Virus record (IMG/VR): IMGVR_UViG_3300020451_000293
Span: 1 to 25,812 of that record
DNA from: a virus
Strand: one strand, 5' to 3'
DNA: 25,812 bases
Shown here one piece after another: positions 24,766 through 25,812 of this stretch (the first letter of the stretch is position 1; every line of letters begins with the position of its first letter). The notes under the pieces were generated by a model. The model was not told the origin of the DNA, did not search any database, and saw nothing but the letters and a program-made list of their open reading frames with translations. The position numbers and the translations under genes were made by a program.

Positions 24766-24893
24766 GATGTTGTAACTATACACCAGTATTAACGAACCCT
24801 AACGCACAAAAAAAAAGAAGAACCTTTTTAGAAAATAATGTTTGAGCAGCATCTATTACACGATTGAAACCACCAATTTTGACCCCCCACTAC
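24766..24893 (-). other. Noncoding gap after small terminase
   Basis: About 110-128 bases without a supported ORF. On the coding strand it has a weak AAAAAG/CTTTTT stem followed by a long T run (complement of 24808-24830), then GTGCGTT. The stem is nearly all A-T, so a strong intrinsic terminator is unlikely; a leaky attenuator is possible. Confidence 0.4.
24801..24807 (-). promoter_or_regulatory. GTGCGTT motif upstream of zinc-ribbon gene pair
   Basis: On the coding strand TTTTTGTGCGTTAGGGTTCG. It matches seven bases of the GTGCGTTGC motif and diverges after GTT. It is placed 36 bases before the ATG at 24765, after a T tract that may end transcription from upstream. The weakest of the four copies. 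Confidence 0.33.
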
Positions 24894-25256
24894 CTAATCC
24901 AAGTCTATACTTATCTTCACATCACCAGCAAGAACATTGATTGCTTTGTCTGGTGGTTTAAATCCAGCTCTATCTAATATATCCTTAGAAGCTTCTAACT
25001 GAACATACTCTGACTTAGCTGAATCACTTAGATTTATAATCTTACCTAGTGCTTGTACTGCGGATATAGAAAACTGCTCACTTGTTAATCGAATCAGCTC
25101 TTGCTGTATATGGGGTAACTTAAGGAGTTGACTACCTTGAACTGAAGCTGTCTTTTCGCTATATCCTGCCATCTTCGCTGATTCTGTAGCGTTTCCACCA
25201 GTACTTATAAAGTTAAGGACAAAATTCTGTTGTTTACTTGTTAGCGCAGTTTTCAT
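24894..25256 (-). CDS. Terminase small subunit
   Basis: 120 residues of the Terminase_2 type: LTSKQQNFVLNFISTGGNATESAKMAGYSEKTA (about 6-38) is the helix-turn-helix core with the signature 'GNATES/A-x-x-AGYS', followed by QGSQLLKLPHIQQELIRL. The C-terminal half has an oligomerisation-type helix (VQLEASKDILDRAGF) and ends in a short strand (VKISIDLD). It recognises phage DNA and recruits the large subunit. GAGG lies six bases before the ATG and a strong sigma-70 promoter just upstream (25273-25302) gives a leader of only about ten bases. This is the first gene of the block; its target site may be the structured region next to it. Confidence 0.93.
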   Translation of the reverse strand: MKTALTSKQQNFVLNFISTGGNATESAKMAGYSEKTASVQGSQLLKLPHIQQELIRLTSEQFSISAVQALGKIINLSDSAKSEYVQLEASKDILDRAGFKPPDKAINVLAGDVKISIDLD

Positions 25257-25272
25257 TTATACCTCTATATAG

Positions 25273-25302
25273 ATTATACACAACTGATTCGTTTTGTGTC
25301 AA
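25273..25302 (-). promoter_or_regulatory. Sigma-70 promoter for the terminase / late operon
   Basis: On the minus strand a perfect -35 TTGACA (complement of 25297-25302), an 18-base spacer and a perfect -10 TATAAT (complement of 25273-25278) point at the small terminase gene 17 bases downstream. Start of transcription is expected near 25265. With such a match the host RNA polymerase should read it strongly, so it was probably kept under repression or used late by other means: a palindrome and DnaA-box-like repeats overlap or flank it. Confidence 0.85.
25274..25282 (+). repeat. DnaA-box-like repeat, copy 1 (TTATACACA)
   Basis: TTATACACA equals the R2 type of the E. coli DnaA box. It covers the -10 element of the promoter. 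A second identical copy lies 34 bases further at 25308-25316, in the same orientation. Host DnaA or a phage repressor could occupy both; an AT-rich chance pair is also possible. Confidence 0.45.
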
Positions 25303-25307
25303 TACAG

Positions 25308-25316
25308 TTATACACA
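25308..25316 (+). repeat. DnaA-box-like repeat, copy 2 (TTATACACA)
   Basis: Second exact TTATACACA, just upstream of the -35 element relative to minus-strand transcription. The two copies bracket the promoter, about three helical turns apart. Confidence 0.45.
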
Positions 25317-25327
25317 TACATTCTAAT

Positions 25328-25347
25328 ATATATGTGGACACATATAT
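25328..25347. promoter_or_regulatory. Operator-like 20-bp perfect palindrome
   Basis: ATATATGTG and CACATATAT face each other across GA, a perfect nine-base inverted repeat 26 bases upstream of the -35. Such a site suits a dimeric regulator. In RNA it would be a poor hairpin because of the two-base loop, so a protein-binding site is more likely than an RNA element. Confidence 0.5.
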
Positions 25348-25376
25348 TTATTCAATAAAGTCTTTTTTGTAACAAG

Positions 25377-25526
25377 GCATATCTGATAGACGATATGCAA
25401 CAAAAAAGGGCTGGTCCATGCGAACAAAAGCTTTAATATATAGTATGTCACCTTGGTAGGGCGGTGACCTTTTTCTACTAAAGTAAAAAAAGCTTATATT
25501 AATAGCTTTCGTCTATCGCACAGCCC
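25377..25526. ncRNA. Candidate structured RNA with pseudoknot-like core
   Basis: Four helices can be drawn. GCATAT (25377-25382) pairs with ATATGC (25393-25398). Its loop base run GATAGACGA (25385-25393) is complementary to TCGTCTATC (25509-25517). GGGCTG (25408-25413) pairs with CAGCCC (25521-25526), crossing the previous helix. Inside lies a long arm AAAGCTTTAATATA (25427-25440) with TATATTAATAGCTTT (25495-25509), capped by GTCACC/GGTGAC (25447-25452, 25463-25468). There is no ORF worth calling. On the minus strand CAGCCC is followed directly by six T (25407-25402), so a minus-strand transcript could end there, just before the terminase promoter. Strand is not certain. I match it to no known RNA family. 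Confidence 0.5.
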
Positions 25527-25556
25527 AGCCTACTCTCTCATCAATCTACCCGGCAT

Positions 25557-25599
25557 TAGCAATACTTAACCTTTGCAAATGCAAAGGTAAGCATAGCTA
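25557..25599. other. Long bulged hairpin in the noncoding region
   Basis: CCTTTGC (25570-25576) and GCAAAGG (25581-25587) form a perfect stem with an AAAT loop. It continues as CTTA/TAAG with one bulged A, a four-by-four internal loop (AATA/CATA), then TAGC/GCTA. Fifteen paired positions with a symmetric internal loop look like a folded RNA arm rather than chance. Confidence 0.55.
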
Positions 25600-25683
25600 G
25601 ATAGAAGTTGGTCTTAAAACTGTCATTGTTTTTGTGTCGAAAATTAACATCCTATTAGTGCTTTCGGCAGTAGCCTACAGCGT

Positions 25684-25735
25684 GCCACCTATAAAGCGGT
25701 GGCGATTATATGAAATCGCTTTTGATGGCGATTTC
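25684..25735. other. Chain of three overlapping, competing hairpins
   Basis: GCCACC/GGTGGC (25684-25689 with 25698-25703), GCGATT/AATCGC (25702-25707 with 25714-25719) and GAAATCGC/GCGATTTC (25712-25719 with 25728-25735) share bases with one another, so they cannot all form at once. This is the form of a switchable or strand-exchanging structure. It lies in the same gene-free stretch as the pseudoknot-like element. Confidence 0.5.
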
Positions 25736-25812
25736 GGACGGATATTAATTTGTCGATATTCACAAGAGCAACATTCCAATCGGACTACACCGCCATAATT
25801 TTATTTCTTAGT

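Follow-up and report, generated by a model that had tools for sequence, protein, structure and literature searches.

Few large ornate RNAs encoded by phages have been described, to our knowledge, and their functions are poorly understood; we know of no established function for either GOLLD or ROOL. GOLLD is frequently encoded near tRNA genes and forms a homo-oligomeric RNA cage, and ROOL is a large phage RNA with multiple pseudoknots. The put RNA of HK022 suppresses termination in cis, and the pRNA of phi29 (~120–174 nt) serves a different packaging motor. GOLLD RNAs are large (many over 800 nt), ornate, and phage-encoded, one part being less conserved than the other, and one characterised example comes from a marine metagenome (PMC12286853). 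ROOL is also large and ornate, with many arms and no known protein partner (PMC12286853). HK022 put is ~70 nt long and consists of two stem-loops downstream of its promoter (PMC9378689).

The region analysed here lies beside the terminase small subunit gene (terS) of a phage, on a stretch of 25,812 nt (IMG/VR record IMGVR_UViG_3300020451_000293, positions 1–25,812; hereafter, the window). Like GOLLD, its putative RNA is large, ornate, and phage-encoded, with parts that are unequally conserved. Unlike GOLLD, it matches no Rfam model (including that of GOLLD), is accompanied by no tRNA gene in the window, which covers one side of the locus only, and is placed between the early and late operons. 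With ROOL it shares large size and many arms; it differs in its locus, in having neither an Rfam match (the ROOL model included) nor a tRNA gene in the window, and in the swapping of sequence modules between close relatives. The window RNA is large and branched, with one possible, weakly supported pseudoknot. GOLLD and ROOL are the nearest in kind, and membership is not claimed because no Rfam family matches. The nearest cis-acting precedent would be HK022 put, also a structured RNA near phage early transcription, but the window region, at ~740 nt, has ten times its length and a large number of arms, and a put-like promoter order was not found. In common with put, no T7-like RNA polymerase (PF00940) was found in the phage, a weak negative since the control matched nowhere. 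As with phi29-type packaging RNAs, the region adjoins a packaging gene, but it is far larger and matches no Rfam family, so that the "packaging RNA-like" character proposed by the first-pass annotation lacks specific support.

The terS gene (24894–25256, minus strand) is the first gene downstream of the structured region. Relatives were collected via TerS, DNA patterns, and the adjoining early gene. In those with TerS 97–99% identical (L001, L002, and L088), the structured region spans the entire ~740-nt early/late gap (745 nt in L001, between a divergent early gene and terS), which shows that the window end truncates it. The gap has no ORF over its full length in L001 and L002, and the structured stretch is gene-free in the window too, in agreement with the first-pass annotation. 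Only five contigs besides the window contain this family, representing ~3 independent alleles. L084 is a nearly unchanged copy of the window allele and L087 carries its 5′ part; the window-type allele was assembled by joining two contigs that share 211 nt with a single mismatch. No Rfam family matched the region at gathering score, and permissive searches (E up to 10 for the window end, E up to 1 for L084, L087, and L088) gave merely chance miRNA-like and other weak matches, so the earlier statement that no known family is recognised holds. BLASTN of the region against phages returned just chance 30-nt matches, and a literature search on pelagiphage ncRNA found nothing on this locus among the papers covered. 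Because its TerL shares 66.7% identity with the TerL of Pelagibacter phage EXVC031P Hodr, a phage isolated on HTCC1062, the window phage likely has a SAR11 host. Two further observations concern the neighbouring genes. The first early gene of L001 (3275–4255, minus strand, 326 aa) has no relative among 50,697 phage records and occurs in only four contigs of the viral collection, and the gap separating terS from the next gene contains, on its minus (coding) strand, a run of nine Ts (24808–24816), a possible slippage or termination signal.

The four alleles, folded independently by minimum energy, agree on most helices. The main domain is closed by helices P1 and P2 and contains a long arm P3, a junction with hairpins P4 and P5, a long arm P6, and a hairpin P7; its closing helices extend past the window end. 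The window holds the 3′ part (25534–25812, minus strand, as for all features below; z = −7.4 for 25546–25812), and the 5′ part is seen in L087 (window allele), L001, L002, and L088. P1 pairs UCUCUAAAUCUACCC with GGGUAGAUUGAUGAGAGA across the architecture; its 3′ strand, GGGUAGAUUGAUGAGAGA (25534–25551), closes the domain with UCUCUAAAUCUACC outside the window (folds and covariation helices 3–4). The 3′ strand of P2, CAACUUCUAU (25601–25610), has its partner AUAGAAGUUG ~380 nt upstream, also outside the window (covariation helix 5, with three two-sided changes). The 3′ strand of P5, GAAAUAAAAUUAUGG (25790–25807), likewise pairs with a partner beyond the window, CCCCAGAAUUAUUAUUUC, present in L084/L087 (covariation helix 10). 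In P6 the fold pairs the 5′ strand GACAAAUUAAUAUCC (25740–25754) with the 3′ strand GGAUGUUAAUUUUCGAC (25636–25652) and includes two hairpins, GAAAUCGC-loop-GCGAUUUC (25712–25735) and GCCACC-loop-GGUGGC (25684–25703); in L001, L002, and L088 the P6 domain has a different sequence and an equivalent arm. P7 (25557–25599) is the hairpin UAGCUAUGCUUACCUUUGC...GCAAAGGUUAAGUAUUGCUA (folds and covariation helices 17–18). After the main domain come a domain D2, a hairpin H2, and the −35/−10 pair of the terS promoter. H2 (25328–25347) has an invariant GUCC loop, and its stem (covariation helix 25) is AUAUGU/ACAUAU in the window and AUCGGU/ACCGAU in L001, with two of the six pairs changed on both sides.

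The folding is much stronger than that of shuffled sequences. For 25300–25812, z is −9.85 on the minus strand and −5.55 on the plus strand, compared with −2.8 to +1.4 for three control regions (two coding and one intergenic). Full-length folds of the terS strand in the four alleles reach z of −9.3 to −17.4 (rough values, from 15 shuffles each), the main domain −12 to −13.5, and the full-length early strand −6.5 to −11. The terS strand is ahead by 12–38 kcal/mol in energy minus shuffled mean in all four alleles, and by z in all domains tested except a hairpin H; the coding controls lean to this strand too, by 1.6–1.9 z units. Single-sided exceptions to pairing (13 G-U versus 11 A-C) do not settle the strand. 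The minus strand assumed by the first-pass annotation is thus the more likely one without being proven, and from these models we would place the RNA on the terS strand with modest confidence.

Two-sided compensatory changes affect 25 of the 219 pairs in alignment A2, which has four rows and a structure derived from folds of the same sequences, and about five of these should be discounted since the D2 alignment of the window allele with L001 is unreliable. Shuffled alignments average 8.5 such pairs (none of 500 reached the observed count), and sliding the partners gives 5–11. The clearest case needs no statistics. Between L001 and L088, both P2 strands, ~350 nt apart, differ wholesale (55.6% and 41.2% identity around them), whereas the bulk between them (P3–P6) is 84–98% identical. 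P2 is thus replaced on both sides together in L088.

The alleles are also mosaic in other respects. The window allele and L001 are 87–100% identical in the flanks and 91–93% in P2 and P7, but only 39.5% in D1/P6 and 24% in D2, and the D1 and D2 of the two are unrelated in sequence. L088 and L001 show the converse, with D1 97.7% and D2 84% identical, and P2/P7 not shared. The coding DNA beside the region is 91–96% identical between the window and L001. Because blocks differ between close relatives while flanks and coding sequences stay alike, modules appear to be exchanged as units that retain their closing helices. In sum, compensatory changes preserve the fold of this non-coding region, and its modules vary blockwise among close relatives. 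Since the fold beats shuffles, compensatory changes agree across alleles, and both P2 strands are replaced together, the sequences indicate that the architecture is under selection, most likely as RNA.

The first-pass annotation centred on a smaller feature, a pseudoknot-like structure, whose elements are all present. On the minus strand, GAUAGACGA (25517–25509) forms nine Watson-Crick pairs with UCGUCUAUC (25393–25385), the latter in the loop of hairpin H, and is crossed by the six pairs of GGGCUG (25526–25521) with CAGCCC (25413–25408). The AT-rich arm with a GC cap noticed between these helices is part of D2 (25408–25530), which has a base helix (25516–25530 with 25408–25424), the arm, and a GC-capped hairpin; for 25408–25545, z is −6.8 on the terS strand and −4.4 on the opposite strand, and D2 folded with hairpin H reaches −7.6. 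Hairpin H (25362–25408) has an outer stem CUUUUUUGU / ACAAAAAAG, an inner 7-bp stem GCAUAUC/GAUAUGC, and an 8-nt loop that carries the pseudoknot strand, of which only seven of the nine bases are free when the inner stem is closed. Only the window allele has this insertion between D2 and H2. When the 150 nt are dinucleotide-shuffled, a 9-bp helix arises in 5.4% of cases and one crossed by a 6-bp helix in 2.5%, which makes the crossing pair by itself evidence of modest weight. The claim that such helices are unlikely to be accidental is accordingly supported only modestly for the crossing pair, and the region as a whole, in view of its minus-strand z, is far from chance. The pseudoknot helix contributes −7.4 kcal/mol with 7 bp and −11.7 kcal/mol with 9 bp, and 9.3 kcal/mol is needed to release its strands from the nested fold; the pseudoknot is predicted to be close to energetically neutral. 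No exact counterpart was found in the other alleles, L001, L002, and L088 offering at most a 7-bp bulged pairing. On these three grounds the pseudoknot, weakly supported in itself, was rejected as the core of the finding.

The T6 tract (25407–25402), from which an RNA ending just before the terminase promoter had been proposed, fits that role poorly. It is 100 nt away from the −35 box, precedes the pseudoknot 3′ partner, forms one arm of the outer stem of hairpin H, and is absent in L001, L002, and L088, so that a conserved terminator was rejected. Terminator and pseudoknot are mutually exclusive, because an RNA ending there would lack the 3′ partner; a hairpin arm is the better reading of T6.

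The promoter itself (25273–25302) is a perfect sigma-70 consensus for terS, TTGACA-18-TATAAT (12/12 matches), and the region is indeed upstream of it, as the first-pass annotation had placed it. Its pattern TTGACANNAAACGAATCANNNNTGTATAAT is kept in relatives; this spacer is conserved ahead of terS even in phages whose TerS identity drops to ~60%, and an inverted repeat (ACTG...CAGT) on either side of it suggests an operator or activator site. Because this perfect host-type promoter follows the RNA, the latter is not simply a late leader. At the 5′ end of the RNA, a search for promoters reading toward terS gave no clear candidate. A conserved promoter-like TAGACA-17-TTTATT separates the structured region from the early gene in all alleles covering this stretch (read by eye, not a tool match).

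Among homologues with TerS at 45–61% identity, several have large, folded, ORF-free gaps of unrelated sequence at the same place, e.g., L056 (754 nt, z = −13.1), L045 (452 nt, z = −10.6), L026, and L074. A different non-coding stretch of 519 nt is found upstream of terS in L214 (12471–12989, minus strand) and L215 (z = −4.7/−6.4), closed by a long helix GCGAUUU.UGUGUGUGAU / AUCACACACAAAUCGC. Pelagibacter phage Hodr also carries a structured region at the locus, one distinct from the window RNA. In L045, L026, L074, L101, and L172 there are long structured early leaders upstream of terS, the 5′ end of which is complementary to the Shine-Dalgarno sequence of the early gene (both read by eye) and can, as judged from this complementarity, mask it in some of these distant relatives; in L003–L010, L211, and L213 the structured leaders are on the terS strand.

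A separate observation is a two-strand, RNA-like motif, CUGCCCGC[A/U]CCACU-[hairpin]-CCGUGUUG, stem-closed and conserved in a structured leader upstream of terS. It is found in L022 (minus, ~1715), L074 (minus, 1113), L101 (plus, 2899), L172 (minus, 912), and L082 (Hodr, minus, 3713), lying in some phages on the early strand; a permuted form, GCCGUGUUG-[hairpin]-CUGCCCGCACC, is on the terS strand in L003–L010 and L211. By exact pattern, the motif also occurs in 19 bacterial genome contigs, mostly of Alphaproteobacteria and some beside relaxase-like genes; 13 bacterial loci tested against Rfam gave no match. A pattern search of the window family for a core motif common to its RNA and these leaders found none.

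The reading we favour, although we hold it at slightly below an even chance, is that of a large (about 0.5–0.7 kb), modular, structured ncRNA in the gap between the divergent early and late operons, acting in trans and perhaps GOLLD/ROOL-like. It would most likely be read toward terS; the long-range helices P1 and P2 would close the main domain and gather several arms, with D2 and H2 then preceding the late promoter. The folded RNA itself would be the product, serving as a trans-acting scaffold or decoy during infection, as proposed for GOLLD and ROOL, and phages would exchange entire helical domains as cassettes while retaining the fold. We infer an RNA rather than a DNA structure, its strand, its free-standing nature, and every functional step. 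A structured 5′ leader is a possible alternative to which we give real but smaller weight: transcribed toward the early operon, or into terS from a start farther upstream, it would control translation or termination in cis. Its strongest argument is provided by the early leaders of L045, L026, L074, L101, and L172 with their complementarity to the Shine-Dalgarno sequence, to which are added the terS-strand leaders of L003–L010, L211, and L213 and the strong folding of the early strand. However, the centroid fold of the early strand does not sequester the early Shine-Dalgarno site of the window family, TAGACA-17-TTTATT would exclude the region from the early transcript, and the energy advantage of the terS strand in four of four alleles, with the tilt of the coding controls in mind, points the other way. 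We narrowly prefer a free-standing RNA on three grounds: the window family shows no evident masking of a start site, its late promoter comes after the RNA, and conservation is of the fold rather than of the sequence.

A DNA-level element, such as a replication origin or packaging site with hairpins acting as single- or double-stranded DNA structures, seems improbable. Both strands fold well, a location beside terS, flanked by divergent operons, would fit an origin or packaging site, and G-U and A-C exceptions are about equal; yet the closing helices join strands ~400 nt apart and covary, and multibranch folds of such range typify RNA rather than DNA cruciforms. Very unlikely is the small RNA that the first-pass annotation had in mind, compact and pseudoknotted, ~150 nt in length, and terminated at T6. 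The complementarities and T6 exist and D2 with H folds well, but the crossing arises in 2.5% of shuffles, its energy is near-neutral, an end at T6 would sacrifice the 3′ partner, hairpin H and T6 are missing in L001, L002, and L088, and strong structure extends far upstream. The structured RNA that it announced is a genuine folded region, and probably an RNA, of ~0.7 kb, of which the stretch first noticed belongs to the 3′ domain. As for the wider family, a tentative proposal, somewhat less secure than that of the trans-acting ncRNA, is that the latter represents a new class of large phage ncRNA with exchangeable helical modules at a dedicated early/late junction, a site that distant relatives would fill with other large structured RNAs (e.g., that of L214/L215).

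SAR11, which the closest isolated relative infects, is among the most abundant marine bacteria. If the large ncRNA is real, devoting ~0.7 kb to it would be expensive for a phage as compact as this (~34 kb), and the RNA would hence probably be important. The swapping of modules would supply natural, structure-preserving variants for finding which parts matter, and in Hodr, with its different structured region at this locus, a cultivated relative exists.
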